Under the pieces are notes generated by a model, which saw only the letters and a program-made list of their open reading frames with translations, ran no database searches and was not told the origin of the DNA. From Sphingopyxis macrogoltabida (GTDB lineage: Bacteria > Pseudomonadota > Alphaproteobacteria > Sphingomonadales > Sphingomonadaceae), in assembly GCF_001314325.1 (NCBI RefSeq), contig NZ_CP009429.1, forward strand, positions 3,410,501-3,474,500: a stretch of 64,000 nucleotides of DNA, read 5' to 3'. Positions 5,833 to 57,847 of the stretch are shown here, in pieces. The position numbers were made by a program, and so were the translations under genes. Within the stretch, counting starts at the first letter, position 1. The number at the start of each line of letters is the position of its first letter.

Positions 5833-5878
5833 GCGAACGATCTAGGCATGGCGCCGCCGACGCGCAATAAGGCGCGCG

Positions 5879-7956: not shown

Positions 7957-8020
7957 CGTTCAAATGGCGGCTTGGCGCAAAGGTTGCAACCGGCGCGGCC
8001 TCCATCCGGGCCGCGCCGCG

Positions 8021-27537: not shown

Positions 27538-27864
27538 TCAGCCCTGGCTGTCCATGAACTGGCGCCGTGCCTCTGCAGTCTTGTCGTTGAGAACGCTGCG
27601 AATCTCGGCATCGCTGATCTCGACACTCGCCGCGGTCAGGTCGCCCGCCAGCTTGCGGATGACGTCCTCGTCGCCCGCTTCCTCGAAATCGGCCTGGACC
27701 ACCGCCTTGGCATAGGCGTCGGTTTCCTCGGGGGTCAGCCCCATCCGCTCGGCCGCCCATTCGCCGACGAGCCGGTTGCGACGCGCGGTAATGCGGAACT
27801 GCACTTCCTGGTCGCGGGCGAATTTCGTTTCGAAAGCCCGTTCACGATCGTCGAATGCGCTCAT
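27538..27864 (-). CDS. DUF1476 / F1-ATPase zeta subunit (ATPase inhibitor)
   Basis: 108 residues from the ATG at 27864 with a GAGG(A)-like site upstream. The sequence begins with the family hallmark FDDRERAFETKFARDQEVQFRI and continues RRNRLVGEWAAERMGLT. In Paracoccus this family is the zeta subunit that blocks ATP hydrolysis by F1 through its N-terminal helix; it is restricted to alphaproteobacteria. First gene of the zeta-BolA-glutaredoxin operon, divergent from the CHAT gene. Confidence 0.95.
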   Translation of the reverse strand: MSAFDDRERAFETKFARDQEVQFRITARRNRLVGEWAAERMGLTPEETDAYAKAVVQADFEEAGDEDVIRKLAGDLTAASVEISDAEIRSVLNDKTAEARRQFMDSQG

Positions 27865-28075
27865 CTTGTCCTCTTTGCAAAAATCTGCCGGTCCGTTGCA
27901 GATAGGTTGCGCGCCCCGGCGAAGCAAGCCGCCTGTGCCGCAGATCACTTCCCTTTTTGATGCGAAGGGGTTAGGGTCCGCCGCACACGGGAATGGGTCG
28001 CACCGCAGCGTTGAAAGACTGCGCCTTGCCGTAATCGTCGGCGGGCGCCCAGGCTTGTGTTTGGGGGATTGCGTA

Positions 28076-31177: not shown

Positions 31178-31181
31178 GACG

Positions 31182-34011: not shown

Positions 34012-34186
34012 GCCATCGTGCCCATTGAACGGACGGAGGGCATCTGATACCAGTCGAACAAGCCGCCGGGTTGAGCGGTAAGTCCTTTCCTTGGGTCGAT
34101 AAATTCGCGCTGCCGCCTGTGCGGCAGGGCATCTGAATTGGCACGTCGCGAGCGATCGCGCGGGCGTTCGTACACAAGGGGTGGTG

Positions 34187-35995: not shown

Positions 35996-36023
35996 CGTGA
36001 CTTTTGCATCGAGGATGACTGCC

Positions 36024-39000: not shown

Positions 39001-42000
39001 GCGCGGGCGACGGTCAGGGCGGAACAATGGCGATCTCGGTCGCGGGCGGCACCTTTACCGCGAATTCGATCAACGTCACCGCCGACGGCTATGGCGGCGG
39101 TGTCGGCACGGCGAGCGGGACCGGGCGAGGCGGCACGGCAAGCTATACCCAGACGGGCGGCACCGTGACCGTCGGCGACATGGCGATCAGCGCCAGTGGC
39201 TTCGGCGGCTTCGCACCCGATGTGTCGGGCCAGGGACTTGGCGGCAATGCGACGATCGACCTGCTCGGCGGCACGCTGACCGGCGGCGATATCGTCGCGA
39301 TGGCTGTCGGCATCGGCGGCGCCGGCGCCATGGGCAATGATTTCGACCCCGCGGGCGCCATCCCCAGCGGCAGCGGCGGCGAAGGGCAAGGCGGCACCGC
39401 GACGATCACCGTCGACGGTGCGACGGTCGATGCCAGCACCCTCGCGGCCTATGCCACCGGCAGCGGCGGGACGGGCGGCGTATTCGTGGCGTCGTCGTTC
39501 GGCGACCCGCCGGGCAACGGCGGCGACGGCGGCACCGGCCTCGGCGGCACCGCAACGGTCACCGTCGCCACCGGCACGGTCACGGCAGCCGGCATCCTTG
39601 CCGATGCCGCCGGGATCGGCGGCGAAGGCGGCACCGTCTTCGCATCGAGCAGTTCGGGCGTCCCGGTCGGCACCGGCGTCGGCGGCAACGGCGGCGAGGG
39701 CCGCGGCGGCAACGCAACGATCGATTTCACCGACGCAGCGACAGTGACCGGCGACATCACCAGTTCGGCGGCCGGGATCGGCGGCAGCGGCGGCGGCGGC
39801 TTTTCGGGCGGCAACGGCGGCCTTGCCATCGGCGGGCTCGCGCAAGCGATCGTCACCGGTTTCGATGCGGGAACGCTGGCGGTCACCGTCGATGCGAGCG
39901 CGGTCGGCGGTAACGGCGCCGACGGCAGCAATGGCACCGGCGGCCGCGGCGGCGACGCCCGCGGCGGGACGGCGCGCATCGAAGCGACGGGGGCCGGCGC
40001 CAGCGCGACCGTCGGTCAGGCCAATTTCGTCACCGACGGCGTGGGCGGCAACGGCGGCAATGGGGGAATTCCCTTTGGCGCAACGCCCGATGTCGCGCCG
40101 CGCGGCGGCGATGGCGGCACCGGCGAAGGCGGCGCGCTGGAAGTCGTCGCCAGCGGCGGCGCGACCGTCCTACTCGGCCCCGATACCAGCGGCACCGTGG
40201 CGCTCGGCAGTCGCGGCACCGGTGGCAACGCCGGCAACGGATCGGCGGCCGCCTTCCTCGACGGATCGCAGGGCGGCGACGGCGGCAATGGCGGCGGCGC
40301 GATCGGCGGCACCGTCCACCTGCTCGCGAGCGGCGGCACGATCACCTCGAACGGTGTCCCGGTGGATATCGCCGTCGATGGGACCGCAGGCGTCAGCGGC
40401 AGCGGCGGCGCCGGCACTGGCACCGGCGCGGACGGTGCCAGCGGCAGCAGCAACGGCACGACCGGCGGCCGGGTCAGTTTCGAAGCCTTCAGCAATCCGG
40501 GCGAAGCCGGCCAGATATCATTGGGTGCCACGACGATCGCCGCGAACGGCGACAGCGCCGGGCGCATCGAGATGCGCGCCGAGGGCACGATCGCGATGAC
40601 GAGCCTCTCGGCCGAAGCGCTGGGCCTCGCCCCGCCGACCAATCTCGACACCGACACCGCCAGCACCGGCATCTTCATGAGCGTTTACGGCGATACAGGC
40701 GCGATCACGACCACCGGCGCAATGTCGCTCAACACCGGCAGCTCGATCGGCGTCTATGCGCAGGCGGCCGGGACGGTTGCGGCGGGCGGCGACCTGACGA
40801 TGCAGGCGGCCGACGAGATCGATATCCGCCACGATTTCCGCACCGGCACCGCGCCGACCATCGCGGCGGGTGGCGCCATGTCGATCAACGCCGCAGTCAG
40901 CATCCGCGCCCAGACCGGCAGCTTGCTGAGCGCCGGGACGTCGCTTCTGCTCAACGCTTTCGCTTCCAACGGCGGGATCAATGTCGACGGAATCGAAGCG
41001 GGCACGTCGACGCTCATCCTCTCGCAGAATGTCGCGCGCGTCGGTTCGTCGACCAGCGGCGACGACCTGACCATCAATTCGTTCCTCATCGACGTCGGCA
41101 GTGCCAACGCCGGTGACGATATCAGCATCATCGGCAATAATTTGACGCTCGGCACGCTGACCACCGACGGCAGCGGCCTCGACTCCGAAATCGACGGATC
41201 GAACATCTTCCTTCAAAGCGCCGCGGCGACGACGGTGACGCATGCCGAAGCCGATAATGATTTCACCGCCGTCGTCGGCAGTTTCCAGACCGGGCTCAAC
41301 TCGATCATCACCGGCGGCGACATCATCGTCAACTCGCCGGGTGCCGTCGACCTTGGCAATTCGACCGCGGGCGGTTTCGTCTCGGTGAACGGCCAGTCGA
41401 TCGCCTTCAATGCGATCGACGCCGGATCGACGGTCTTCCTGACGGCAACGGGCACCGTCCCCGGCGCCGCAGGCATCGGCGGCGTCTCGATCGATGCCGG
41501 CGACAATATCAGCCTGAATGCGACCGAGATCGGAATCACCGGCACCGTAGCCAGCGGCGGATCGATCGTCGCGAACGGCAGCGCCGGCGCGGTCGCGATC
41601 GACACCGCCAATGCCGACGATACCATCTTCATCGAAGCGACCGGCGATATCACCGGCGCCTACAACGGCTTCCGGGGCGTATCGCTGAACGCGGGCGGCG
41701 ATATCGCCGGTTCGGCCAGCGCAACCGGTTTCGAAAGCTCGAGCAGCGGCACCCCGATCGCGGCCAGCGTGTTCGTCGATGCGGGCGGCGACGTCACCCT
41801 GACGTCGGGCAATGCCGCGGGGATGTACGGCGTCAATGCCGGTGGCAGCGCGACGCTCACCGGCGTCAGCGCCGGCGAGGATTTGCTCGTCCGGGCCGGC
41901 ACCACCGCCAGCCTGACCAACCTGACCGCAGGCGACGACCTGACGGTGCAGGCGCCCGGAACGATCACCGCGGCCGGCCTGCTCACCACCGGCACCGGCC

Positions 42001-45000
42001 CCGACAACCAGTCGATCGATTACAGCACCGGTTTCGACGTCATCACCTCGTCCCCCGACGGATCGAACATCGTTCTGACCTCGACCGGCGGAAATGTCGC
42101 CGCAAACAGCGCGAACGCTTTCGACAATCTGACCGTCACCGCGGCGGGCACCTTGTCCTCGACGGGATTGCTGCAATCGGGGCTGGTGACCAGCCTGACG
42201 GGCAACCTCGTCAATCTGACCGCGGTCACCGCGGGCACCGACATCGGCGTCAATTCGGCCAGCGCCGCATCGGCAACCGGCGCGCTCGCCGCCGGGCACG
42301 ACGTGACGGTCGTTGCCGCGGCCAACGTCAATATCGCCGAACTCGATGCCGGCGACGACGTGAGTGTCAATGCGGGCGGCACCGCCCGGATCGGCGCCGC
42401 CTACAGCTATGGCAGCGGTCTCGACAATGAAGGCAATGGCAGCAACATCGGCATCACCGCCGGCGGCGCGCTGATCCTTGCCGGCATCGTCCAGTCGGCA
42501 GGCAATGTCACGCTGCAAGGCCCGTCGGTTTCGACCGCGGCGATCGACGCCGCCGGCGACGTCGCCGTCACGGCCACGGCGGGCAGCATCGTCGCAAACG
42601 GCGACATCAGCGGCTTCCGCATCACCCTCGATGCCGCCGGAAACATCAGCCACGCGGCGAACAGCCGGATCGACGCCGACTTCACGCTGCGGCTCGACGC
42701 CGACGGAAACATCAGGGTCGGCACGGCGTCGTCGGGCGACGACATGTTCCTGACGGCGGGCGGGACGATCACCGGCGGGGCACTCACGTCGGACCGGAAC
42801 ATCCTCCTTTTCGCCGACCAGGCGGTCAACCTGACGGGCGACGCCAGCGCCGGGCTTGCGCTGCGCATCGAAGGCAGCGCGGTCGACCTTGGCGACATCG
42901 CGGTCGATGCCGCCGAGCTCGGGATCACCGCGACGAGTGGGGGCGTCCAGTCCACCGGAGCCATCAACGCCAACGGCCCGGTCACGGTGGTCGGCGCGGG
43001 CGCGGTTTCCATGACCGGCGACATGATCACGCGCAGCGTGATCAACATCAGCGGGGCATCGGTCACGGTCGGGAATGTGACCGGCAGCGATTCGATTAGT
43101 CTCATCGCCAGCGACGGCGCGGTCAACTCGACGGGGACGCTCGACGCCGGGCGCAACATTTTCATCTCGACCACCGACGGCGGCAGCTTCAACCGCATGG
43201 TCGCGGGCGACGACATCGCCATCAATGGCAGCGGCGACATCGATATCGCCTTCATGAATGCGACCGGCGACAATCCGGACGGCGAAGAGATCGGCAGCAA
43301 TGTCGGCATCAACCTGACCGCGGGCAACGTCTTCGTCGCGCATGGCGAGGCGGCGGACGATTATGTCGTCAACGCGACCAGCTTCCGCACCGGGCTCAAC
43401 TCGATCATCGCCGGCGGCAATATCGACATCACGACCGTGGGTGCGTCCGATCTGGGCAATTCGACCGCGGGCGGATCAATCACGGTCGCTGCGCAATCAA
43501 TCGCGTTCAACACGCTCGATGCCGGGGCGACGATCAACCTCACCGCGAACGGCACCGCGGCGGGTGCCGAAGGGATCGACGGGGCGACGGTGATCGCGGG
43601 CAGCGACATCAACATGAACGGCAACAGCATCGCGATCACCGATTCGGTGACCGGCGCCGCCAATTTCTTCGCGATTGGCAGCGGCGGGGCGGTTGCGGTC
43701 GCCCGCGCCGATGTTACCGGCACCATCTCGATCTTTGCCAACGGCAATCTGACCGGGACCTATGTCGCGGGGAACAATATCTTCCTCGATTCGGCCGCCA
43801 ATATCACCGCATCGGCGAATGCGAACGGCGGCAACCTGTTCGTCGACGCCGCGGGCAATGCGACGCTGACCGACAGCGGCGCGGCGAGCATGTTCGGGGT
43901 CAATGCCGGACAGGCGGCATCGATTACCGGAGGCACGGCGGGCGAAGACCTGCTGGTCATTGCGGGGACGACGGCGAACCTGTCGAACGTAACCGTGGGC
44001 GACGACGTCACCGTCCGCGCCAACGGCGCGATCACGGCGCAGGGTGTCCGCACCACGGGCGCCGGCACCGATAACCGCGCACTGAGCTTTTCCCCCGCCA
44101 GCGGCTTCACCATCAGCTCGGGCGAAGGCACCTCAGCCACCGACGGCGCCGATATCGTCATGGCGTCGGCCAGCGGCGCGATCAACGCTGGCGGGCTGTC
44201 GGCGGGCGACGATATCCTGCTAACGGCCGCGACTGCGCTGACCCTAAATGGCGCCACGACGCTCGGCCTCGGCATCACCGGTGGCGACAGCAGCATCCGC
44301 ACCCAGAGCGCCAGCGCGGTGCTCGGCGGCCTTGCGGCGGCTAGCGACGTGGTGGTCGATGCCAGCGGCGCGATCGCGGTCAACAGCCCGTCGACCGCCG
44401 GCCGCGACGTGATCATCAACGCCGCCTCGGCCAATATCGCGATCTTGACGAATCCGGCGGGCGATCCGGTCGATACGCTTGCCGCCGGACGCGACCTTTC
44501 GATCCAGACGGCGGGAGCCATCGCCGGCGGCAGCGTGAGCGCCGGGCGCGACCTGACGCTGTCGGCGGGGTCGACGATCGACATCGCGCGCGCCTCGACC
44601 GCAGCAGGCGGATCGCTGACACTCGACGCGGCCGCCGGCATCACCGCCGCCTCGCTGGGCGGCGGCGGCGCGACCAGTCTGACGAGCGCCGACGGAGCCA
44701 TTGTGGTCGGCAACCTTGCTTCGGCGGGACCGGTCAGCGCCATCGGCGACAGCGTCGCGATCGACGGAGCGGGCAATCTGATCTTCAGCCAGCTTCAGGC
44801 GGCGGGCGGCAACGCCCGGGTTACCACCGGCGGCAATCTTGCCATCACCGCCGGAACGGTCTCCGGCGAAGCGCGGCTGTCCGCCGGCGGCAACCTTGCC
44901 GTGACCCGCCTCGATGCCGGCGATGCGATCCTCGCATCGAACGGCACGATGACGCTCGGCAATGTGACCGCCGACGAAACCCTCGCGGCAACCGCACAGT

Positions 45001-46178
45001 CGCTGCTGACGGTGAACGGCGCCGTCACGGGGCGGACGATGTCGCTCGCATCGGCCGATATCGCGATCGCCAGTGCCGGCCGCGTCGGCACTGGCACGAC
45101 CGAAAGCCTCGAACTCCGCAATATCGATAACCGGGTGCAGACCTTCATCGGCGGCACCGGGACGCAGAACGGCTATCATATCGACAGCGACGAGCTGACG
45201 CGCGTCTATGGCACCGATATCCGCATCTTCGCGCCCGCGGTCGACCGGTCGGGCGGGCGCTTCATCGGCACCCTGCCGCCCGATGTGGTGATCGACGATT
45301 TCACGATGACCGCAGGATCGTCGACCTCGAACCTCGGCACGAACGGATCGCTGACGATCGCCACCCCGGGGACGGCGCGCGTCGTCGGCGATGTCGCGTT
45401 GACCGGTATGGGCGACAACAACGCCCTCAACATCTTCGCCGACCAGTCGCTCGAAATCATTCTGGGCGAGGCGTCGATCCGCCTTTCGGGGAGCAGCAGC
45501 AGCGCGCCCGCCGGGCGGTTGAACCTCGCCTCCGAAGACGTGATCGTCGCGACGCTCGCGGCGATCGACGATGTCGCGGCGGCCGGCAGCACCGACGCGA
45601 TCGAGGACCGGCTGGCGCAGAACGATGGCATTACCAGCGACGAGGGCGCGCTCTTCGCGGGCGGCATCAATGTGGGGGTCAGCGGCGGCTTCTATGTCCA
45701 GAACAGCGGCGGCAGCGACTTCGGCGAACGTCGCGGCCTGACCTTCGGCGCACTCGGCCTCAACGTCGATACCGCGGGTACGGACACGCGGATCGTGATC
45801 AACGGCGTCCATCTCGGCCCGTCGGGACAGGTCACCGGGCTCGACACGATCCCCCTGCTGACGATCAACGGCATCGCGAGCGGCCAGGCCCCCACCGACG
45901 CCTTTGACCAGCGTTCGCGCTTCAACGGCTGCCTGATCGCCAACACCGGCGCCTGCCTCACCATACCCGAGCCCGAATATCACAACAGCTTCCCGGTGCA
46001 GGATGTCATCGAGGAAGAGGTCGACGACGACGGCGACGACGGTATCACGCTGCCGCAATCGCTGATCACGATGCGCGACCTCGACCCGCTGACCGGCGAG
46101 CCGCTGCTCGACGATCCGGTGACCGGCGCGGGCAACGACGATCTGTGGACGCCGGCCACCGACACGCAGCAGCCCTGA
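36024..46178 (+). CDS. TpsA giant exoprotein (filamentous hemagglutinin-like adhesin)
   Basis: About 3,384 residues. I place the start at the ATG at 36024 (GAGG nine bases before); ATG 36015 and GTG 35997 are alternatives. A long signal peptide ends at GGPALAQG. The TPS secretion domain follows (ADNNLEFYGTGQYTVLNRF, GNIWFYNAGGILVGGSATFN), where the usual NPNGI is replaced by NAGGI. Residues ~470-1480 are glycine-rich beta-helix repeats (GNGGDGGTGLGGTATV type); ~1500-3050 are FhaB-like AGDD(I/L)TV repeats including a long duplication. The C-terminus has paired Cys and an acidic tail. It is expected at the cell surface as a beta-helical adhesin or secreted filament. It is by far the largest gene here. 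Confidence 0.93.
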   Translation: MRAISTPSPVRHGKRHLLESCAIVAGMAALAYGGPALAQGVAGTGQVVAGPGLSGATISPPAPLGPTAPPNTTQVTTTGPQTIINWTPTDTSTDTALGAIDFLPADNNLEFYGTGQYTVLNRFIGPASAARQIGINGTVNGYIGSPFASGGNTQGGNIWFYNAGGILVGGSATFNVGSLLLTANNIDTADGLFGPGGEIRFRGVAGTSEVQIAQGATVNALTVGNPGGSYVALVAPRIVQRGRVRTDGSTAYVAAEQADISINNGLFDINVTVGAADGDVITHSGVTTGPAHQQGDTDQNRIYMVAIPKNDAVTMLVSGQIGYEDALSAQVDPDGAVRLSAGYNIVDGEFAAAPVATGTANITVNDTLFLSDVVAHASGAFTGRPLSEIPPPIFDTPDFAHVGRISVQGNATFIGDESTTITVDTNRFVGATGDLIIQTGAAGGVPGAVNVNVDGGQISASNLSILADGAVDAATGDSRGGTAALTVSNGGSASAVGTVTVSANGIAGRDTAGAGGDGTGGTATITVTGSNLATGVASRVAGNTIVAAANGVGGGLEDGGSGIFTASDQGGSGTGGNVTISVQDGASLTATDGSVTASASGSGQIGNIQSGNGTGGAARIEVAGADSVFDTPTTTIDAFGAGGGSISDIVIGTIPSQGGGSGRGGSATLSIAGDATTAINPGATSLNVTGSGGGAVGAENVAGGNAVGGTATVEASGLVAVTFPSLTVTADGFSGGASSPSLLTGQSGNATGGTINVTADNGATLTVDANVQLFAAGIVAFSENLGSGLGGNVTVSAEDAGTIDVAGGIGIDVSGGGFGTSISESGGSGTGGRVNLLAARSGVLTASRYDVVASGLTANVRGTGGPAQGGFVNIEATAGGSIAATDVSLGTIIDASALSGVSADGSVAGGGTIQITAGGGSIDFNATTTLQASGVSGGATNAGSSTTGNGGFIQIQVLDDPTGPSSIAFDTLQGGADGLTAVDVESAPGFEQSAGDGQGGTMAISVAGGTFTANSINVTADGYGGGVGTASGTGRGGTASYTQTGGTVTVGDMAISASGFGGFAPDVSGQGLGGNATIDLLGGTLTGGDIVAMAVGIGGAGAMGNDFDPAGAIPSGSGGEGQGGTATITVDGATVDASTLAAYATGSGGTGGVFVASSFGDPPGNGGDGGTGLGGTATVTVATGTVTAAGILADAAGIGGEGGTVFASSSSGVPVGTGVGGNGGEGRGGNATIDFTDAATVTGDITSSAAGIGGSGGGGFSGGNGGLAIGGLAQAIVTGFDAGTLAVTVDASAVGGNGADGSNGTGGRGGDARGGTARIEATGAGASATVGQANFVTDGVGGNGGNGGIPFGATPDVAPRGGDGGTGEGGALEVVASGGATVLLGPDTSGTVALGSRGTGGNAGNGSAAAFLDGSQGGDGGNGGGAIGGTVHLLASGGTITSNGVPVDIAVDGTAGVSGSGGAGTGTGADGASGSSNGTTGGRVSFEAFSNPGEAGQISLGATTIAANGDSAGRIEMRAEGTIAMTSLSAEALGLAPPTNLDTDTASTGIFMSVYGDTGAITTTGAMSLNTGSSIGVYAQAAGTVAAGGDLTMQAADEIDIRHDFRTGTAPTIAAGGAMSINAAVSIRAQTGSLLSAGTSLLLNAFASNGGINVDGIEAGTSTLILSQNVARVGSSTSGDDLTINSFLIDVGSANAGDDISIIGNNLTLGTLTTDGSGLDSEIDGSNIFLQSAAATTVTHAEADNDFTAVVGSFQTGLNSIITGGDIIVNSPGAVDLGNSTAGGFVSVNGQSIAFNAIDAGSTVFLTATGTVPGAAGIGGVSIDAGDNISLNATEIGITGTVASGGSIVANGSAGAVAIDTANADDTIFIEATGDITGAYNGFRGVSLNAGGDIAGSASATGFESSSSGTPIAASVFVDAGGDVTLTSGNAAGMYGVNAGGSATLTGVSAGEDLLVRAGTTASLTNLTAGDDLTVQAPGTITAAGLLTTGTGPDNQSIDYSTGFDVITSSPDGSNIVLTSTGGNVAANSANAFDNLTVTAAGTLSSTGLLQSGLVTSLTGNLVNLTAVTAGTDIGVNSASAASATGALAAGHDVTVVAAANVNIAELDAGDDVSVNAGGTARIGAAYSYGSGLDNEGNGSNIGITAGGALILAGIVQSAGNVTLQGPSVSTAAIDAAGDVAVTATAGSIVANGDISGFRITLDAAGNISHAANSRIDADFTLRLDADGNIRVGTASSGDDMFLTAGGTITGGALTSDRNILLFADQAVNLTGDASAGLALRIEGSAVDLGDIAVDAAELGITATSGGVQSTGAINANGPVTVVGAGAVSMTGDMITRSVINISGASVTVGNVTGSDSISLIASDGAVNSTGTLDAGRNIFISTTDGGSFNRMVAGDDIAINGSGDIDIAFMNATGDNPDGEEIGSNVGINLTAGNVFVAHGEAADDYVVNATSFRTGLNSIIAGGNIDITTVGASDLGNSTAGGSITVAAQSIAFNTLDAGATINLTANGTAAGAEGIDGATVIAGSDINMNGNSIAITDSVTGAANFFAIGSGGAVAVARADVTGTISIFANGNLTGTYVAGNNIFLDSAANITASANANGGNLFVDAAGNATLTDSGAASMFGVNAGQAASITGGTAGEDLLVIAGTTANLSNVTVGDDVTVRANGAITAQGVRTTGAGTDNRALSFSPASGFTISSGEGTSATDGADIVMASASGAINAGGLSAGDDILLTAATALTLNGATTLGLGITGGDSSIRTQSASAVLGGLAAASDVVVDASGAIAVNSPSTAGRDVIINAASANIAILTNPAGDPVDTLAAGRDLSIQTAGAIAGGSVSAGRDLTLSAGSTIDIARASTAAGGSLTLDAAAGITAASLGGGGATSLTSADGAIVVGNLASAGPVSAIGDSVAIDGAGNLIFSQLQAAGGNARVTTGGNLAITAGTVSGEARLSAGGNLAVTRLDAGDAILASNGTMTLGNVTADETLAATAQSLLTVNGAVTGRTMSLASADIAIASAGRVGTGTTESLELRNIDNRVQTFIGGTGTQNGYHIDSDELTRVYGTDIRIFAPAVDRSGGRFIGTLPPDVVIDDFTMTAGSSTSNLGTNGSLTIATPGTARVVGDVALTGMGDNNALNIFADQSLEIILGEASIRLSGSSSSAPAGRLNLASEDVIVATLAAIDDVAAAGSTDAIEDRLAQNDGITSDEGALFAGGINVGVSGGFYVQNSGGSDFGERRGLTFGALGLNVDTAGTDTRIVINGVHLGPSGQVTGLDTIPLLTINGIASGQAPTDAFDQRSRFNGCLIANTGACLTIPEPEYHNSFPVQDVIEEEVDDDGDDGITLPQSLITMRDLDPLTGEPLLDDPVTGAGNDDLWTPATDTQQP
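37440..40480 (+). repeat. Glycine-rich repeat segment inside the TpsA gene
   Basis: The coded protein consists of irregular 15-40-residue units around GGxGxGGTATIxVxG, with runs of GGC codons, resembling the appearance of PE_PGRS or RTX-like beta-solenoids. There is no DNA-level tandem identity, so the repeats are old and diverged. Confidence 0.75.
41220..42075 (+). repeat. Long internal duplication in TpsA, unit 1
   Basis: About 285 codons starting near HAEADNDFTAVVGSFQTGL and passing through DLGNSTAGGFVSVNGQSIAFN, GMYGVNAGGSATL, AGEDLLVRAGTTASL to SSPDGSNIVL. The same succession of motifs recurs in unit 2; at the start of the unit the offset is exactly 2,100 bases (e.g. CGGGCTCAACTCGATCAT at 41291 and 43391). 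Confidence 0.85.
43310..44165 (+). repeat. Long internal duplication in TpsA, unit 2
   Basis: Counterpart of unit 1: HGEAADDYVVNATSFRTGL, DLGNSTAGGSITVAAQSIAFN, SMFGVNAGQAASI, AGEDLLVIAGTTANL, then TSATDGADIVMAS. Identity is high in the first ~120 bases (2,100-base offset) and then drifts with small in-frame indels. Confidence 0.85.
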
Positions 46179-49677: not shown

Positions 49678-50721
49678 ATGACCGTGGAAAGCTATCGCTT
49701 CGATGCCTTTCTGTTCGAGCCCGGCGACCGGCGTCTGCTGAAAGGCGGCAGCCCGGTCGATCTTAACGCCCGCTATCTCGACGCGCTCGCGTTGCTCGTG
49801 CGCGAGCAGGGGCGGATGGTACCCAAGGATCGCTTCATGGCCGAGGTCTGGCATGGTGTGCCGGTGACCGACGAGGCACTGACCCAATGCATCCGGACGT
49901 TGCGCCGCTTGCTCGGCGACGATGCGACACGGCCGACCTTTATCGAAACGGTTCCCAAGCACGGCTATCGGTTTATCGCGGCGGTCGAAACCGCCGTGGC
50001 GCCTTCCACGTCGCCGGCGGCGGCGCCCCGCATCCACGATATTCTGCTAACCGGCGGTGCGGGTACGGCCGGCGCGGCGCTCGCCGGCGCGATCGGCGGG
50101 CTGCTCTATGGTCTGGTTGCAGCGGCCCAGCCATCAGCGACAGGCGGCAACGCCCTCTCGGTGCTGCTGGTGCTGCTCGCGCTGACCACGACGCTGGCGG
50201 CGGTCGGCGGCGCCGGCGTATCCTTCGGTATCGCCACTGCGCACTACGCCCGGACGCGGCGTGACATGTGGACGATCGCTGGCGGCGCGGCGGGCGGTTT
50301 TATGGTCGGGGCGATCGCCAAGCTGATCGGGCTCGATGCGTTCAGCCTGCTGCTGGGACAAAGCCCAGGCGATTTTACCGGCGCGGCCGAAGGCGCCCTG
50401 CTCGGCGGGACCGTCGGGATCGCCCTTTGGGCTGCCCGGCGAGGCGCACCTTGGCCGTTCGCAAGGCGCACCGCGCTCGCCGCGCTCGTTGGTGCGGCCG
50501 GCGGCGCGACGATCAGCCTGTTGGGAGGGCGGCTGTTCGGCGGCAGCCTCGCGCTGCTCGAACGCCGCTTCCCCGGCTCGCGCCTCGATCTCGATGCGAT
50601 CGGCGCGCTCTTTGGCGAGCGCGGCATCGGAACGGCAGGCGAGCTGGCCACGGCCATGCTGGAGGCGGCGCTATTCGCCGCGTGCATCGCCGGCGCCATG
50701 ATTGCGGCCGAAAAGAATTAA
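49678..50721 (+). CDS. Membrane-linked winged-helix regulator (CadC/OmpR-type DNA-binding domain)
   Basis: 347 residues. Residues 1-102 are an OmpR/PhoB-type winged helix without a receiver domain: YRFDAFLFEPGDRRLLKGG, LTQCIRTLRRLLGDDA, TFIETVPKHGYRFIAAV. After a short linker come several Gly/Ala-rich membrane segments (GAGTAGAALAGAIGGLLYGLV, LSVLLVLLALTTTLAAVGG and others to the end). The layout resembles CadC/ToxR-like one-component regulators, except that the membrane part has many helices and no periplasmic sensor. It is divergent from a membrane protein gene and converges with the phosphodiesterase gene, overlapping it by four bases. Confidence 0.85.
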   Translation: MTVESYRFDAFLFEPGDRRLLKGGSPVDLNARYLDALALLVREQGRMVPKDRFMAEVWHGVPVTDEALTQCIRTLRRLLGDDATRPTFIETVPKHGYRFIAAVETAVAPSTSPAAAPRIHDILLTGGAGTAGAALAGAIGGLLYGLVAAAQPSATGGNALSVLLVLLALTTTLAAVGGAGVSFGIATAHYARTRRDMWTIAGGAAGGFMVGAIAKLIGLDAFSLLLGQSPGDFTGAAEGALLGGTVGIALWAARRGAPWPFARRTALAALVGAAGGATISLLGGRLFGGSLALLERRFPGSRLDLDAIGALFGERGIGTAGELATAMLEAALFAACIAGAMIAAEKN

Positions 50722-51566
50722 GCCGGTCGCTCGGCCTTCAACTCGCGGACCAGCGGCTGCAGATTGCGGTCATATTTCGCGAGCATCGTGTGTGCGCCGG
50801 CGTGATCGTAGAAGCTCACCAGTTCGCGCCCGTTCCAGCGGTGGAGCGCATAGGCGGGATCCTCGGCGACGATCATCGGGCGGTCGTCGGGGTGGTCCTC
50901 GTCGATCGGCCTGAGGTCGAGCGACACCTGCGGCGCCGTCGATGAGCAAATCGCGATGGTGCGGCCTTCCCATGCGACGGTGACGCTGCGGTGCAGGTGG
51001 CCGCAGATCAGGCCCCGGACCTGCGGGTGGCGCCGCACGACATCGCCGAAGGTCGCGACCCAGGGTTCGTCGGGGTGCGTGTTCATCCACTCGATGCCGC
51101 TCTCGACCGGCGGGTGGTGCATCACGATATAGGTCGGCTTGTTCCCGTCCTTCGCCAGTTCGGTATCAAGCCAAGCGGCGCGGCGCTCGCAAAAGGCGCC
51201 GCCGTGGCGCCCTTCCTCGAGCGTATCGACCGTCACCAGCCGCAATTCGGGCAGCTCGATCGCATATTGGACAAAGCCGTTGCCGTCGTCGAACCCCGGA
51301 AACTGGGCGTGGAAATTGTCGCGCACGTCGTGGTTGCCGACGCTCGGCCACACCGGAAAGGGGCAGCGCGAAAAGGCGGTGGCGAGGCGGCGATAGCTGT
51401 CGGCATCGCCGCGGTCGGTGATGTCTCCCGTGGCGAGCAAAAGATCGGGACGGTTCGGGCCGTCGATCAGCACGTCGAGGACCTCGTCGAGCCGCTTGCG
51501 GTTATATTCCGCCGGATTGTCCGGATCGAAACCGATATGAATATCGGTGATCTGGGCGATCAGCAT
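50718..51566 (-). CDS. Metallophosphoesterase, CpdA-like cyclic nucleotide phosphodiesterase
   Basis: 282 residues from the ATG at 51566 (GGGGACGG in front); a longer upstream reading lacks motifs. The five metallophosphoesterase blocks appear in order: QITDIHIG, LLATGDITDRGD, SVGNHDVRDN, VMHHPPVES and ICGHLHRSVT. Length, spacing and the TDIHIG start match class III phosphodiesterases such as CpdA, which hydrolyse cAMP. It is the last gene of the run that begins with an oxidoreductase carrying two cyclic-nucleotide-binding domains (42-bp gap to the preceding gene), which makes a cyclic nucleotide substrate more credible. Another phosphomonoester or phosphodiester substrate cannot be excluded. 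Confidence 0.87.
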   Translation of the reverse strand: MLIAQITDIHIGFDPDNPAEYNRKRLDEVLDVLIDGPNRPDLLLATGDITDRGDADSYRRLATAFSRCPFPVWPSVGNHDVRDNFHAQFPGFDDGNGFVQYAIELPELRLVTVDTLEEGRHGGAFCERRAAWLDTELAKDGNKPTYIVMHHPPVESGIEWMNTHPDEPWVATFGDVVRRHPQVRGLICGHLHRSVTVAWEGRTIAICSSTAPQVSLDLRPIDEDHPDDRPMIVAEDPAYALHRWNGRELVSFYDHAGAHTMLAKYDRNLQPLVRELKAERPA

Positions 51567-51608
51567 ATCCGTCCCCTGCTCCGGCCGGCTGGTCCGACCG
51601 CCCAATCT

Positions 51609-53543
51609 TCATCCACCCCTGTCGGCGGGTCTTAGCGCAGGCGCGCGCCACGTCACATCATAAAGACCGCGCCGCTCGCCACCTGTGATCAGGCTCACAG
51701 TATAGGCGCCGCGCGGCGGACGGTCTGTGATCGCGCTCACATTCTTCTTGCGCTGCGTCGGCGGCATCCACGGCTTGCCGCCGTCCGAATGATATTCGTG
51801 ACACATCGCACAGGGCGATTCGGTCGCCGTCTCGACCTTCACCAGCCGCGCGCCGCCCTCGCCGACATGGCAATCGCGGCACTGGCGGACGCCGGGAACC
51901 AACAGGTCGGTCGCGGCCTTCGATCCCGGCGCGGCGGTGTGACAGTCGGCGCAGTCGGTTTCCTTGTGCGCGTCATGATCGAACCAGCCCTTTTGCAGGA
52001 AGCGCGACGTCTGGTCGACCGCGGCGACCCGCCAGCCGGTTCCGGCCTGCGGCGCGAAGATCGTGTGGCAGTCGTAACAGGCGCCGCCCTTCGAGAAGAC
52101 CGCGCGCACCGCGTCCTGCGCCCGGCTCGGCCGCACGGCGACCTCGCGGAAATAGATGTTGTAGACCTGTCCCTCGGCATATTGGCCCGGCCGCCGCCGC
52201 TGCATTCCGCCAAGCTGTAACGGCCGAGCCGGCGGGGTCGAGCGATAATAAGCGGTGAGGTCGGCGACGACCTGATCGGGCTCGCCATGGCGCAGCGTGC
52301 GCGTGACGCCGCCGACGGTCTCGAACGCGAGGCTGTGGCACATCGCGCAGTCGCGCTCCATCTCGACCGGCTTGATCCGGACCCCGTCGGCGTCGGGACG
52401 ATGGCAATTTTCGCATTCGAGCTTTTGCCCGAAATCGTATCGGCCGCGGAAACTCGCCGCCATCCGCGCGACGCCGCCGGTCGCCTGCAAATGCATGTCG
52501 TGCGGGAATTTGAGGCCGTTATAATCGACCGTGCCCTTGGCGAGCGTCGTGCGCACCAGCTTCGCGCCCGGCGCCGAGCGGACGAGCGGGCGGAATTCGG
52601 GGTGGCTGGTGCCGAAATCGCCGGCGTCGCCGAGCAAGGTCGGATGCCCCGCACTTTTCAGCCGCGCCGACATGCCGTCGTGGCAATCGGCGCAGAATTT
52701 CTGCGGCGTCGCGGGCATCGGCCCCGCGCCCTCATGCTCGGTATGGCAATCGACGCAGCGCCCCTGCGGCTTGTTGAAGGTCTTGGCGAACCCCGCGAGG
52801 ATCTTCTCGCCCACCCCCGGCGGATGGCGCGCCGCGAGCAGCATCGCCGCCGGGGCGTTCGCATGCGCCATGCTCATCGCCTTGTGTTCGCCGGTGTGAC
52901 AATTGACGCACGCCTTGTCGGTCACCGCCACGAACGGCTCGACGTGGCACGACTGGCAATCATTCTTCAGGCTGGCGTGCGCGCTCGACAGCGGCCCCGA
53001 CAGCCAGGCGCTGTCGGCATGATAGCCGTCGGGGCGCTCGTTCACATTCTTGTAGCTGTACCACGCCCAGATCGGCCCGATCAGGAAGGCGGCCAGCATT
53101 AGCAGGCCGAACACCCACGCCCCGATGCGCTTGCCGGGCATCACCCCGGCGAGCGAGAAGGCCTTGGCCTCATCGACGTCCTTCGACGATTGCGACAGCT
53201 CGTCGATCCGCTCGACGAGCAGGATGATGTCATCGCCCTCGCGCGCGATCGTCAGCCGGTGACCGCCGAAACGCAGTTCGGCGCCCGCGGCGCTGTCGAT
53301 ATCGGCGGTGTCGACCGAGCGGCCGTTGATGTCGAAGCCCAGCCCTTCGCTGGCTGCAACCCGGACGTGACGCCCGTCGGCGCTGCTGATCGTCGCATGG
53401 TGCGGGTTCACCGCGAGGTCGGCGACGTGGATCGTGTTGCTGCCCTCGCGGCCGAGCGTGATCGTGTCGCCGGGCAGCGGCGCGTCGCGGATGATCTGCT
53501 TGCCCGTCTTCGTCGTCGAAATGCGGCGCAGGATGAAGCTCAT
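51609..53543 (-). CDS. FHA domain fused to a membrane-anchored decaheme c-type cytochrome
   Basis: 644 residues. The N-terminal ~110 residues form an FHA domain (LGREGSNTIHV, NPHHATIS), a phospho-threonine-binding fold expected in the cytoplasm. One transmembrane helix spans ~141-163. The remaining periplasmic part has ten CxxCH heme sites, starting at residues 196, 212, 263, 284, 377, 399, 489, 531, 555 and 578, with extra His residues as axial ligands (FPHDMH, DHDAHKE). Multiheme domains of this kind move electrons across the periplasm. The start is ten bases after the di-heme membrane protein gene. Fusing FHA to a multiheme cytochrome is an unusual architecture. Confidence 0.93.
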   Translation of the reverse strand: MSFILRRISTTKTGKQIIRDAPLPGDTITLGREGSNTIHVADLAVNPHHATISSADGRHVRVAASEGLGFDINGRSVDTADIDSAAGAELRFGGHRLTIAREGDDIILLVERIDELSQSSKDVDEAKAFSLAGVMPGKRIGAWVFGLLMLAAFLIGPIWAWYSYKNVNERPDGYHADSAWLSGPLSSAHASLKNDCQSCHVEPFVAVTDKACVNCHTGEHKAMSMAHANAPAAMLLAARHPPGVGEKILAGFAKTFNKPQGRCVDCHTEHEGAGPMPATPQKFCADCHDGMSARLKSAGHPTLLGDAGDFGTSHPEFRPLVRSAPGAKLVRTTLAKGTVDYNGLKFPHDMHLQATGGVARMAASFRGRYDFGQKLECENCHRPDADGVRIKPVEMERDCAMCHSLAFETVGGVTRTLRHGEPDQVVADLTAYYRSTPPARPLQLGGMQRRRPGQYAEGQVYNIYFREVAVRPSRAQDAVRAVFSKGGACYDCHTIFAPQAGTGWRVAAVDQTSRFLQKGWFDHDAHKETDCADCHTAAPGSKAATDLLVPGVRQCRDCHVGEGGARLVKVETATESPCAMCHEYHSDGGKPWMPPTQRKKNVSAITDRPPRGAYTVSLITGGERRGLYDVTWRAPALRPADRGG

Positions 53544-53553
53544 CGGTCCCGCC

Positions 53554-54435
53554 TCACCAGTAGAAGAAGACGCTGATGATGTGCGCCGACAGCGCCGCGA
53601 TCAGCGCGAAGGTCAGCGGCACATGCACATAAAGCCAGATTTCGAGCAACGCGCGGATGCGGAGGTGTTGACGCAGCCGCCCCAGCGCCGCCTGCTTCTG
53701 CGACAGCAGCCCGACGACCTTCTCGCGCGCCTCGGCATCGCTGCTCCGCGATGCCGACAGCGCACGGTGCGCCGCCGCCGTCGCGCAATCGGGATAGCGG
53801 CCCGACAGCCGTGCGCCGATCCCGCCCGCGAACGGGTCCTCGTCGAGCGCGGCGAGCACCGGCGCCGTGTCCTCGGGCGTCAGCGGCTGCGCTGCCGTAT
53901 GGAGCTGGCGGTCGAAGGCGCGGATCGCCTCGAGCATCTGCATCTGCGTCATTTCGTCACGGTTGTTCGACAGGGCGGCGGGCAGGGTCGCATAGACGAC
54001 GACGCCATAAAGCCCCGACAGGATGACGAGCATCATCAACGCCCAGGCCAGCGTGTGGACATTCCAGCCGAGCTGGAAGCCGGTGTGCCAGGTGCCGATG
54101 ATAATCAGGCTGAGCCCCAGATAGACATGCGCCGAGGTCCACGCCTTCAGCGACCAGTGATCGCTCGTCATCTTGCGCTTGCGATAACCCAATGCGGTGA
54201 GCCACAGGATCAGGCCAGCGCCGATCGTACCGAGCGTATAGCCGTACCAGCTCCCGCCATTGTGCCGCGGCGTCACGTCGACCAGCGCGTAGCTGACGAT
54301 CACGAGCAGGCAAAGGCTGGCCGAGATCTTGGCCCAGCGAAAACCCGCATAGCGCAAGAAGCCCTCATGCCGCCGCTCGCGCACGCGCTCGACCTGCGTG
54401 GCCTTGTTGCGCCGCCGCTGAAAGAGACTCGCCAT
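53554..54435 (-). CDS. Putative di-heme b-type membrane cytochrome
   Basis: 293 residues from the ATG at 54435, which overlaps the upstream stop (TGATG). About five membrane helices are predicted. Two helices carry His pairs with 13 residues between them, His103/His117 (AHVYLG..TWHTGF) and His271/His285 (YVHVPL..SAHIIS), the classic spacing for two bis-His hemes b stacked across a membrane. A soluble loop of ~110 residues lies between the helices. I did not recognise a named family. Position between a cytoplasmic flavo-iron-sulfur protein and a periplasmic multiheme protein supports trans-membrane electron transfer. Confidence 0.8.
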   Translation of the reverse strand: MASLFQRRRNKATQVERVRERRHEGFLRYAGFRWAKISASLCLLVIVSYALVDVTPRHNGGSWYGYTLGTIGAGLILWLTALGYRKRKMTSDHWSLKAWTSAHVYLGLSLIIIGTWHTGFQLGWNVHTLAWALMMLVILSGLYGVVVYATLPAALSNNRDEMTQMQMLEAIRAFDRQLHTAAQPLTPEDTAPVLAALDEDPFAGGIGARLSGRYPDCATAAAHRALSASRSSDAEAREKVVGLLSQKQAALGRLRQHLRIRALLEIWLYVHVPLTFALIAALSAHIISVFFYW

Positions 54436-56867
54436 CAGTCGGCGTCCTCTTGCAGCCGCGCGATCGACAGGAATTCCTCCGGCGACACGCGGATTGCGGC
54501 GCCGGTCGGGCATGCCCGCACGCAGGCGGGCCCGCCCGCGATGCCCTTGCACATGTCACACTTCACGGCAATCTTCTTGGGCTTCTCCTCGCCCAATTGC
54601 TTCTTCGTCCATTTGGGCGACGGCTCGCCGGGGCCGGGGCCGAAGCCGGTGAGCAGCCAGCGCAGCAGGCTTGGCTTTTGGGGTGGCGCCGCCTCCATGC
54701 GGATCACGCCATAGGGGCAGTTGCGCATGCAGTTGCCGCAGCCGATGCAGCCGGGCTCCATGAACACCTCGCCGTCGGGGCCGCGGTGGATCACGTTGGG
54801 CGGGCAGTCGGCCATGCAATGCGGATGCTCGCAGTGGCGACAGCTCGTCGGCACGTGCAGATGCGCAAAGGTCTTGCCCGCCTCGCGGTCGAGCCGCGAC
54901 AGACCTTCGTGGCTGTCGGCGCACGCTTTCTCGCAATTGTCGCAGCCGACGCAGAGATTCTCGTCGATCAGGAGCGCGTCGGTGGCTTCGCCGAGCCCCT
55001 CCTTCATGATGAAGCTCGCGGTGTCCGAATAGAGGTCGACCGCGCTCGAATAGCTTGCCTTGCGCGATTCGATGAAGCTGTTCATTTGCGCGCGCTCGGC
55101 GACCGCCGCCTCGGTCGCCTCGCGCACCTGCGGCCGCGCAGCGAGCATCTTGCGAAAGCTTTCACCGGTCAGCTTGATGAGCTCGGCGCCGACTGCCGCC
55201 TTCACCGTGGCGTTGCGCGGCTCGCCGCTCAGGACGCCCATCTCGCCGAAGAAGCTGCCCGCGGGCAAATAGCGGAGGAAGATCGGCTTGCCGCCGATAT
55301 CCTTCTCGACCACCATCGATCCCGAGCGGATGACATAGACGTCGTCGCCCTGCTCGCCCTCGGTCAGCACCGTCTTGCCCGCGGGCACGCGCTCGACCTC
55401 GGCCGTGTCGACGACCTCGGCCAGATCGTCGACCGTCAACCCACCCTTGAAGATCTGGAGCAACTGGCGCTCGAGCGAGATGCGGTTGATCACACGCTTT
55501 GCGCCGGGCACCGCCGCCATCAGCTTGAGCGCCGCAGTCCGCGACACCTCGACGAAAATGCTGTCCTCGCCGGCGCGAATCGTCGCGCCGCGCTTGCGCC
55601 CCGAAATCAGCCCGACCTCGCCGAAGATCGATCCTTGTTCGATCGGGACGGTCAAATCGGGACCGACCTCGACCTCGGCATGGCCGTCGGCGATCGCGAA
55701 CAGCGACGATCCCGGCTCGCCCTTTTCGAACACGACGTCGCCCTTGCGGTAGAAGGCGACCTTCGAATCGAGCATGAATTCGCGCATCTGGAGCGGCGAC
55801 ACATCGGCGAAGATGCGGATGCGGGTGCGCAGATATTCGAGCCATTCGCTCACCGGTTTCTGCTGCGGCAGCCCCGCGAAGATTGCGGCCAGATCCTTTT
55901 CGTCGGCGGGGGTCAGCGCGGTGTTGCCGTTGATGAACTCGACGACGTCATAGCCCTGGTTCATGCAATGCTTGATCAGCGGATAGCCGGCGAGGGCGCC
56001 GATCACGAAAATGCCGGGTACGGTCGATTCAAAGGTCGGCGACAGCTTCGGAAAGGCTTCGCGGTCGGGCCCGGTAAATTCGATCCCCATCGATTCGACG
56101 AAACCGCGCGGCGCGACCGACCCCAGCCGTGCGACGATCACGTCGCACTGGATCTTCTCGTCGCCGGTCGGCGTCTCGAGCGTCAGCCAGCCGGGTTCGA
56201 CCATCTTCGGCTGCGTTTCGGTACGGATCGACATGAAGCCATTCTCGCCCGCCTCCATCATGTCGGAGACATTCTTCGCCTTGGCGCGCGCGAAATCCTT
56301 CGAGCGGTTCAGAATGGTGACGGTATTTTCGAGCGCCTCTTCGGCGACGCCGAGCGCATTCTCGATACCCGCGTCGCCCGATCCGACGACGGTAATATGC
56401 TTGTCCTTGAAATCCTCGGGGTCATCGACGGTATAGATGATGTGCGGCAGGTCGTTGCCCGGACAGCGCATCCGGTTCGGATTGCCCTGCGTGCCGATGG
56501 CCAGCACGATATTTTCCGCCTTGAATACGCCCTTGCTGGTCTTGATCTCGAACGCGCCCTGCTGCCCGGTCACTTCGGTAACCTCGGCTTCCTTGACGAC
56601 ATTGACCTTGTTGCTCGCCGCATCCTCGTCCCAGTTACCGAGAATATATTCGCGCGCCCCCTCGGCGAAACGGCAATCCGATCGCAGGTCGAGCCGATCG
56701 GGCGTCGCGAGGACACGCTTGCCCTTCTGATATTTGAAGATCGTATCGGAAAGATGGTCGGTCTTTTCGAGCAGCACATGACTGAGCCCGAGCTGCCCCG
56801 CACGCGACGCGGCGCTGAGCCCCGCGGGGCCCGAACCGATGATCGCGACCTTGACCGCGTCACTCAT
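54435..56867 (-). CDS. Flavoprotein / double cyclic-nucleotide-binding / four-[4Fe-4S] fusion oxidoreductase
   Basis: 810 residues in three parts. 1-325: thioredoxin-reductase-like FAD/NAD(P) module with two dinucleotide loops (IIGSGPAGLSAA; TVVGSGDAGIENA) but no CxxC redox disulfide. ~355-600: two cNMP-binding domains, each with a phosphate-binding-type segment (GSIFGEVGLISG..RGATI; GSFFGEMGVLSG..RNATV). ~645-790: ferredoxin module with sixteen cluster Cys in four groups (CVGCDNCEKAC, CRHCEHPHCMADC, CIGCGNCMRNC, CDMC..CVRAC), as in DmsB/NrfC-type subunits. It probably accepts electrons from NAD(P)H and passes them through Fe-S clusters to the membrane cytochrome encoded next. First gene of the operon, with a dyad upstream. 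Confidence 0.9.
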   Translation of the reverse strand: MSDAVKVAIIGSGPAGLSAASRAGQLGLSHVLLEKTDHLSDTIFKYQKGKRVLATPDRLDLRSDCRFAEGAREYILGNWDEDAASNKVNVVKEAEVTEVTGQQGAFEIKTSKGVFKAENIVLAIGTQGNPNRMRCPGNDLPHIIYTVDDPEDFKDKHITVVGSGDAGIENALGVAEEALENTVTILNRSKDFARAKAKNVSDMMEAGENGFMSIRTETQPKMVEPGWLTLETPTGDEKIQCDVIVARLGSVAPRGFVESMGIEFTGPDREAFPKLSPTFESTVPGIFVIGALAGYPLIKHCMNQGYDVVEFINGNTALTPADEKDLAAIFAGLPQQKPVSEWLEYLRTRIRIFADVSPLQMREFMLDSKVAFYRKGDVVFEKGEPGSSLFAIADGHAEVEVGPDLTVPIEQGSIFGEVGLISGRKRGATIRAGEDSIFVEVSRTAALKLMAAVPGAKRVINRISLERQLLQIFKGGLTVDDLAEVVDTAEVERVPAGKTVLTEGEQGDDVYVIRSGSMVVEKDIGGKPIFLRYLPAGSFFGEMGVLSGEPRNATVKAAVGAELIKLTGESFRKMLAARPQVREATEAAVAERAQMNSFIESRKASYSSAVDLYSDTASFIMKEGLGEATDALLIDENLCVGCDNCEKACADSHEGLSRLDREAGKTFAHLHVPTSCRHCEHPHCMADCPPNVIHRGPDGEVFMEPGCIGCGNCMRNCPYGVIRMEAAPPQKPSLLRWLLTGFGPGPGEPSPKWTKKQLGEEKPKKIAVKCDMCKGIAGGPACVRACPTGAAIRVSPEEFLSIARLQEDAD

Positions 56868-57073: not shown

Positions 57074-57847
57074 TCAGGCGAGCTCGAACATCGCCGCGAT
57101 GCGATCCGAAGCCACCGGCTCGAACCGCGCCCAGCCGTCGGGGCCCAGCTTTTCGAGCGGGCGGAAGCGTGCCTTGTACGCCATGCGCGCCGATCCTTCG
57201 ATCCAGTAGCCGAGATAGACATAGGGTAAACCGGCGTTCGCGGCGCGGATCACATGGTCGGCGATGATATAGGTGCCGAGCCCCTCGCGCATCGGGTGCG
57301 CCGCGTCGAAGAAGCTGTAGATCATCGACAGCCCGTCGCCCTGCCGGTCGGTCAGGCAGCAGCCGACGAGGCGGCCGCGGCTGCCGTCGACGGTCGGTTC
57401 GCGATATTCGATCATATGGCTGTCGACCGGGGTCTGTTCGACCATGTCGGCGAAATCCTGATCGTCCATGTCGGCCATGCCGCCAGTGGGATGGCGCGAG
57501 GCGAGATAGGACTGGAGCAGGCTATATTGCTCGTCGGTCGCCCAAGGTTTGCAGGCGGTCGCAATCAGGTCGCCGTTGCGGCGCAGGTTGCGCTTTTGCG
57601 AATTGCTCGGCTTGAACTCGCTTGCACAAACACGGACCGACACGCACGCCGAACAATCGGCGCAGCTCGGGCGATAGGCGACCGACTGGCTGCGCCGGAA
57701 GCCGATACGGCCCAGCGCATCGTTGAGTTCGTTCGCATTGTTGCCGCTGAGTTCGGTGAACACCTTCCGTTCGGTCTTGCCCTCCAGATAGGGGCACGGC
57801 GCCGGGCTGGTGACGAAGAAACGCGGGAAACGGAACGGTGCGGACAC
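57074..57847 (-). CDS. bpt: Aspartate/glutamate leucyltransferase (Bpt family)
   Basis: 257 residues, full length. Family lines are [53 protein letters not shown] and [24 protein letters not shown]. The Cys-rich N-terminus (PCPYL, CADCSAC) is characteristic of the arginyltransferase/Bpt superfamily. Bpt adds leucine to N-terminal Asp/Glu, marking proteins for ClpS-ClpAP degradation in the N-end rule pathway. It is a single gene; its start is divergent from nothing recognisable. Confidence 0.95.

Follow-up and report, generated by a model that had tools for sequence, protein, structure and literature searches.

Among the described systems closest to the locus reported here are the MtrAB, MtoAB and PioAB envelope conduits, which comprise inner-membrane, periplasmic and outer-membrane parts and combine decaheme cytochromes with a barrel. 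A further point of comparison is provided by NADPH oxidases (NOX) and ferric reductases, in which electrons pass from NAD(P)H to FAD and then to two b hemes stacked across the membrane. The Shewanella conduit is reported to be fed from quinol through CymA (PMC13322032), the inner part of the Geobacter ext cluster (extHIJKLMNOPQS) to contain a Rieske protein and a cytochrome-bc-like b protein (PMC5877670), and CbcL, at the Geobacter inner membrane, to be a putative quinone oxidoreductase that carries both b and c hemes (PMC5585712). Here we analyse a 64,000-nucleotide stretch of Sphingopyxis macrogoltabida (NZ_CP009429.1, positions 3,410,501 to 3,474,500; hereafter the window), which encodes a four-gene cluster, A-B-C-D. 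The A-B-C genes probably encode the inner-membrane input of a nucleotide-gated, NAD(P)H-fed electron conduit that spans the envelope. This set is not described in the available portions of the three sources above or of PMC5566968 and PMC9226611, and searches of an open-access library, subscription journals not being covered, returned no account of it.

Architecture of the A-B-C-D cluster

The four genes, hereafter labelled in the order of transcription, are as follows.

54435-56867, minus strand: A, cytoplasmic; NAD(P)H/FAD thioredoxin-reductase-like domain without CxxC, two cyclic-nucleotide-binding (cNMP) domains and a 16-Cys ferredoxin-type domain
53554-54435, minus strand: B, membrane protein; His pairs H103/H117 and H271/H285, two b hemes expected
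51609-53543, minus strand: C, N-terminal FHA domain (cytoplasmic), one transmembrane helix and a periplasmic decaheme c-type cytochrome (10 CxxCH)
50718-51566, minus strand: D, class III metallophosphoesterase, nearest to SpdA/CpdA and under both cut-offs; adjacent to C in relatives at family level

A and B overlap by one base, and the gaps are 10 bases between B and C and 42 bases between C and D, the latter with the ATG at 51566 taken as the start of D. A preliminary description of the window had already claimed four genes on one strand with this spacing, and the open reading frames (ORFs) agree. In the database records of bacteria that carry the set, such products are named hypothetical, cytochrome c3 family, cyclic nucleotide-binding domain-containing and metallophosphoesterase proteins.

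Protein A matches the Pfam models Pyr_redox_3 (114 bits), cNMP_binding (112.3 bits over two stretches, cut-off 27.5) and Fer4, as expected of the flavoprotein with two cNMP domains and sixteen Fe-S cysteines first proposed. In an alignment of the window sequence with 45 A ORFs from one length range, all 16 cysteines, located between residues 639 and 786, are invariant in the 46 sequences; we infer four [4Fe-4S] sites. The phosphate-binding residues of both cNMP domains, Glu417/Arg426 and Glu542/Arg551, are also invariant in 46/46, which makes the cyclic nucleotide binding suggested earlier plausible at the level of sequence. No CxxC was found within the first 330 residues of any of the 46. The flavin domain scores 132.5 bits with the YpdA model, below the cut-off of 339.9, and its relatives in the PDB are 7a7b and 5ygq. 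It is shared with YpdA and with thioredoxin-reductase-like ferredoxin-NADP reductases, but in A it sits within a cNMP/Fe-S protein. The lack of the thioredoxin-reductase Cys pair, together with the likeness to YpdA and ferredoxin-NADP reductase, fits electron transfer to the Fe-S domain.

The strongest hint that electrons go from A to B comes from two genomes of one genus (G373 and G482), in which A and B form a single protein of 1118 or 1123 residues (L181, 3052-6420; L182, 4849-8202), followed by a C homologue with nine CxxCH. In a distant cousin cluster (L183 in G395, 3843-11148), a cNMP/Fe-S protein without a flavin domain adjoins an FNR-type flavoprotein with a 2Fe-2S domain; the cluster also encodes a diverged B, a c554 cytochrome and a multiheme protein in which no FHA match is seen. 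There the flavin part is of another kind and the cNMP/Fe-S part is kept, which suits A as an NAD(P)H input with an attached sensor.

The predicted structure of B (pLDDT, the predicted local distance difference test, 87.3) has five long helices, which in our reading of the model would span the membrane, although a hydropathy scan marks fewer. H103 and H117 lie on the third long helix and H271 and H285 on the fifth, the two His-x13-His pairs noticed at the outset, and this placement suits two stacked b hemes. These four histidines and H127 do not vary in either of two alignments of relatives, one with 19 and one with 35. By charge rules, H103/H271 would bind the heme on the cytoplasmic side and H117/H285 the heme on the periplasmic side. 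The fusion, the 16/16 conserved Fe-S cysteines and the four invariant heme-b histidines all support the path from NAD(P)H through FAD, [4Fe-4S] and heme b to heme c that the preliminary description had put forward.

B might instead exchange electrons with quinone, in which case A-B-C would resemble CbcL and act, under regulation, as an NAD(P)H:quinone or a quinol:cytochrome c enzyme. B does weakly resemble the cytochrome b561/Ni-hydrogenase b family, whose members often handle quinones (15.8 bits for the window protein and 28.8 bits for L075, both under the cut-off of 30.1), and CbcL, with its putative quinone oxidoreductase activity, offers a precedent. Likened by description, CbcL also joins a membrane b-type cytochrome to a multiheme c-type part; here, however, two proteins are involved, C carries an FHA domain and B would receive its electrons from a soluble NAD(P)H unit. 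The A+B fusion and the presence of an Fe-S domain speak for NAD(P)H as the direct source, and we consider a quinone-linked enzyme unlikely.

Protein C has ten CxxCH and a single hydrophobic helix at residues 140-158; exactly ten CxxCH are present in 71 of 78 C ORFs. The FHA Pfam model scores 17.0 bits in full-length C against a cut-off of 20.7, and a genome search with PF00498 did not pick up the domain. The isolated domain scores 20.7 bits, right at the cut-off. In an alignment of the window domain with those of 36 of 69 usable loci, 34 of the 37 domains match FHA at E<=0.1, and their profile retrieves GarA, OdhI and Rv1747 from the PDB (best E 9e-11). The AlphaFold2 model of the domain is mainly beta (pLDDT 88.6). 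We therefore regard the FHA domain as real, as a fold-level assignment, and the FHA, transmembrane and ten-CxxCH architecture first noted for C holds. Among solved structures, the relatives of C are limited to weak NrfH/c7 matches.

Conservation of A-B-C across Proteobacteria

Within the genus, C is encoded in 33 of 36 Sphingopyxis genomes, that of the window included, and in 0/24 genomes from other families of the order. That A-D might be a Sphingopyxis peculiarity, as the latter count suggested, was dropped once matches appeared in the class and in named genomes. At the class level, C occurs in 25 of 289 genomes, again including our own (E limit 1e-30). A B homologue adjoins C in 24/24 class-level loci besides that of the window genome, and the Fe-S part of A is seen in 18 of these 24, with short flanks of about 1.5 kb. 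In a phylum sample, B was found in 16 of 398 genomes (E limit 1e-10).

When named genomes were scanned with B as the sole query, the best 80 of 587 matches were analysed, several of these 80 loci being cut by contig ends. They are mostly labelled Alpha-, Beta- and Gammaproteobacteria, many are metagenome-assembled genomes (MAGs), and hosts include Oceanibacterium, Ferrovibrio, Aerophototrophica, Lysobacter and Tahibacter. C is present in 77 of the 80 and A in 67, a count that takes in L049 and L101 as well as L118, where A lies after the F5 gene described below. Because these loci were selected by B only, their neighbouring genes count as independent evidence. The gene neighbourhood thus extends beyond close relatives, A-B-C being kept together across all three groups, and the restriction to close relatives that the preliminary description had named as a ground for rejecting its proposal is not seen.

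An outer half in many genomes

In the same 80 loci, C is followed in the same direction by up to three further families: F3, with HbpS-like repeats (57 loci), F4, of about 620 residues (52 loci), and F5, of about 1260 residues (51 loci), in which a CxxCH region, with ten motifs in 45/51, precedes LVIVD beta-propeller repeats. Wherever A, C, F3, F4 and F5 occur in these loci, they lie on the strand of B. A small protein, F6, is found in 21 loci and a c554-type cytochrome, F7, on either strand in 19. From its sequence, F4 is a probable outer-membrane barrel. For B, F4 and F5, sequence searches gave no convincing solved structural relatives. In L071, L072, L079, L085 and L086, labelled Rhodospirillaceae, Legionellales or Mesoflavibacter, two other gene families converge with A-B-C in place of F3-F5, one of them with five CxxCH where complete.

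Twelve of the loci have no A beside B, and in 10 of the 12 genomes A is encoded elsewhere (E limit 1e-60; one match is partial); in 7 of these 10 it adjoins F7 and/or a piece of F5 (L219, L220, L222-L226). A suspected lack of A in Betaproteobacteria was dropped after these genome-wide searches, the genomes of L060 and L095 still being without A.

The window genome carries its own outer half at a distance: a search with an E limit of 1e-6 placed an operon-like row, F7-F3-F4-F5, at C1:4572350-4582001, about 1.1 Mb from A-B-C-D. The two halves are adjacent in sister genera (G204, G303, G623 and G668) and in two Sphingobium replicons, and are split, as in Sphingopyxis, in G664 and G708. The four genes first described are therefore genuine, but in many genomes the conduit is larger and they make up its inner half. 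In G483 the contig stops directly past F4. One of the loci with both halves, L192 (NZ_CP020539.1), is on a Sphingobium megaplasmid typed as conjugative; the conduit may thus be able to move between strains.

The presence of the two halves is closely matched. Of the 36 Sphingopyxis genomes, 34 encode F5 (E limit 1e-10). Neither C nor F5 is present in G015 and G017, and G031, which is 73% complete, has F5 but no C. Among other members of the family, F5 is present in 6/6 genomes with B and 0/11 without B, and in other families of the order it is present in 0/24. Overall, 76 of the 77 genomes from the order carry either both halves or neither, G031 being the single disagreement, although the 77 are not independent, since 36 come from one genus. 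Two further genera, g25 (G303/G461) and g247 (G668/G574), each have one genome with both halves and another with neither.

Like the Mtr and Pio systems, this arrangement would have components at both membranes and in the periplasm and would pair decaheme cytochromes with a barrel, which is predicted here. It differs in its input, NAD(P)H through A and not quinol through CymA, and in its cNMP and FHA domains. Pfam and NCBIfam presumably each contain an MtrB/PioB porin model; no Pfam match to such a porin was found in the 11 F4 proteins scanned and no NCBIfam match in F4 of the window genome. With the MtrA/DmsE model, C scores 20.2 bits against a cut-off of 192.2, F7 scores 15.8 bits and F5 has no listed match. 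The Mtr and Pio barrel and cytochrome form one outer-membrane complex, whereas F4 and F5 are known as adjacent genes. The ext cluster also groups a porin-like protein with several multiheme proteins, and ExtM is the nearest named relative of F5, sharing a multiheme stretch (70.4 bits, far under the cut-off of 800); its inner part is of the bc type, whereas here it is a cNMP flavoprotein. A-B-C with the outer half is best read as a new version of a porin-cytochrome-like conduit, one that falls outside the Mtr/Pio and ext families in these sequence comparisons.

The order of NAD(P)H, FAD and two b hemes also follows NOX logic, and A-B-C could be a cytochrome-based counterpart, a trans-membrane NAD(P)H oxidase that makes superoxide or peroxide outside the inner membrane for signalling, manganese or iron chemistry, or defence. 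Several of the named hosts are aerobes, and HbpS is involved in heme, iron and redox-stress handling in other systems, both in keeping with such a role. The locus differs from NOX in having another flavin fold, an Fe-S relay in between and a multiheme exit. Ferric-reductase transmembrane and FNR-type FAD/NAD domains are absent from the best 25 of 32 matched families for A and from the one family for B, and two decaheme proteins with a barrel exceed the needs of oxygen reduction. We rate an oxidase as very unlikely.

Inward flow would use the same parts, surface cytochromes oxidizing an extracellular donor (a metal, a cathode or a reduced organic compound) and feeding C, B and a cytoplasmic pool. 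Reduction of NAD(P)+ from extracellular donors such as metals is uphill, and no proton-coupled step is seen in A or B. One of the loci (L053) does come from a MAG named Biocath_Alpha_33, and the Mto and Pio sets of envelope cytochromes are reported to be able to serve oxidation (PMC5566968). On balance, an inward direction is quite unlikely, and we retain export from NAD(P)H as the probable direction of the conduit.

Cyclase cassette, predicted phosphodiesterase and CRP-type sites

At lower window coordinates, five genes on the opposite strand form a cassette around a cyclase.

27776-31177, plus strand: CHAT-domain protein, first gene of the cyclase cassette; linked, putative role
31146-33266, plus strand: CHASE2 sensor with class III adenylate/guanylate cyclase; linked, putative role drawn from co-occurrence and from the Sphingobium outer-half neighbourhood
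33253-34011, plus strand: hypothetical protein, no Pfam match; 'FecR-like' is our label alone
34181-35995, plus strand: ShlB/FhaC-type two-partner-secretion transporter; linked
35997-46178, plus strand: 3393-residue exoprotein, partner of FhaC by position; no Pfam match

On a Sphingobium herbicidovorans plasmid, a Crp/Fnr gene and the same five genes are followed by F7-F3-F4-F5, which converge on A-B-C-D. Among 17 of the 36 Sphingopyxis genomes searched for the cyclase (E limit 1e-40), it was found in 15/15 with C and 0/2 without C. The six other family members with B gave four strong matches, one match at 31% identity (G623) and one weak match at a different place (G303), and no match was found in the 11 family members without B or in six genomes of other families. 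Weaker matches occur in 6 of 12 class- and phylum-level genomes with A-B-C or B. The distance from cyclase to C is 13-19 kb in 14 of 15 Sphingopyxis genomes, a spacing that could simply reflect synteny among members of a single genus. Parts of the cassette are also found close to the outer half in G204, G623, G668 and G708 and in the more distantly related G583; the retrieved flanks of G303 contain none.

D is a calcineurin-type phosphoesterase (Pfam 61.5 bits) with the motifs DIH, GD, GNHD, HHPP and GHLH. Ahead of it lie two exact palindromes.

51684-51699, no strand: CRP-type TGTGA-N6-TCACA palindrome, exact, within the 3' end of C and some 125 bp ahead of the start of D
51726-51741, no strand: second exact TGTGA-N6-TCACA, 42 bp further upstream; exact in 4/20 loci (L001, L002, L008, L012)

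The first is kept at the identical place, 88 bases ahead of the C stop codon, in 20/20 Sphingopyxis loci, which belong to one genus with common ancestry and include that of the window genome (L001). The residues encoded between its arms vary (VS[LMQD][IV]TG), while the Thr codon ACA, used for 87 of 836 Thr codons in the 20 genes, is retained in all 20; the palindrome arms thus look selected as DNA. The second locus of the window genome and 15 loci of other genera, searched with one mismatch allowed, have no exact site, and one-mismatch matches occur in L171, L175, L177, L178, L188 and L211. The window genome encodes one candidate CRP, a CRP-like protein (L229); its phosphate cassette reads GE..R and its SREHINR helix resembles the recognition helix of Escherichia coli CRP. 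Control of D by cyclic AMP (cAMP) and CRP is a fair guess from the sequence, and the cassette, D and the conserved palindrome suggest that the conduit is embedded in a cAMP circuit, chiefly among sphingomonads.

Other features surround the operon. A third exact TGTGA-N6-TCACA is at window position 13816, far from A-D. A CadC-like winged-helix protein, a possible regulator, is encoded at 49678-50721, convergent with D, and an arginyl-tRNA-protein transferase gene at 57074-57847, on the same strand, lies 206 bp upstream of A. Upstream of A, no CRP site was found even at three mismatches, and a single FNR match with two mismatches was regarded as chance.

Proposed mechanism and its alternatives

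The sequences show which domains and invariant ligands are present, which genes are linked or co-occur and that A and B can be fused; the direction of flow, the identity of the nucleotide, gating, the crossing of the outer membrane and the acceptor are what we infer from them. In the proposed mechanism, A would take electrons from NAD(P)H onto FAD and along four [4Fe-4S] clusters to B, whose two b hemes would carry them through the inner membrane to the periplasmic decaheme domain of C. From C they would reach the outer half (c554-type F7, HbpS-like F3, the putative barrel F4 and the decaheme/propeller protein F5) and an acceptor at the cell surface. Cyclic nucleotide bound to both cNMP domains of A would switch the flow, and the FHA domain of C may be a second cytoplasmic docking site. 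In sphingomonads, the CHASE2 cyclase would produce the nucleotide and D, as an off-switch, would degrade it, with expression of D in Sphingopyxis tied to cAMP through the CRP site. A second messenger acting through A would then gate export allosterically across both membranes, and sphingomonads would hold the whole loop of cyclase, sensor-reductase and phosphodiesterase with its CRP site, an extension that we offer tentatively.

Several observations weigh against the reading of A-B-C as the input of a gated conduit. At the outer membrane, the barrel call for F4 comes from the look of its sequence, with no model match, and F5 is missing from four (G317, G111, G119 and G164) of the 13 class genomes that were searched for it and carry C or B, a subset of those found, and from 5 of 6 genomes at the phylum level that encode a homologue of B, so that not every system has an outer half. 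Of the 12 genomes searched for A, two (G710 and G714) yielded none. A class III cyclase domain occurs in just 2 of the 80 named loci, and 6 of the 12 class- and phylum-level genomes have no cyclase match at 1e-40; being rare outside sphingomonads, the cyclase is a regional addition and not a universal partner. D is found in 2 of 24 class-level loci beyond that of the window genome and so belongs to the set mainly in its sphingomonad version. The class III motifs of D agree with the CpdA-like phosphodiesterase first described, but it misses the CpdA cut-off (80.7 bits, cut-off 225) and lies nearer to SpdA, which acts on 2',3'-cNMP (141.2 bits, cut-off 400). FHA domains contact phosphothreonine through a Gly-Arg, a Ser, a His and an Asn-Gly motif, and Gly31-Arg32 alone is invariant among the 37 FHA domains of C; the domain proposed initially stands, but its phospho-sensing is weakened.

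The conduit could also be real and its cNMP and FHA domains play no part in gating, serving instead to scaffold or localize the complex or to detect another nucleotide during assembly. The conservation of Gly-Arg alone across the 37 FHA domains, the rarity of D and the cyclase beyond sphingomonads, and the retention of cNMP domains beside a different flavoprotein in L183 would all fit. Both cNMP domains nevertheless retain the phosphate-binding Glu and Arg in every one of the 46 sequences, and cyclase and conduit are present or absent jointly within the family, which makes a non-gating role somewhat unlikely.

Whereas the well-studied conduits are quinol-fed, the input of the proposed nucleotide-gated A-B-C conduit is an NAD(P)H flavoprotein that bears its own nucleotide sensors. 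Sphingopyxis, Lysobacter and Tahibacter are not textbook metal respirers. If correct, the reading would define a class of electron transfer to the outside of the cell that is shared by Alpha-, Beta- and Gammaproteobacteria, among them organisms grown as aerobes in culture, and would allow a direct test of whether bacteria switch electron export on and off rapidly with cAMP or a relative. It would also mean that common environmental bacteria have an overlooked redox activity at their surface.

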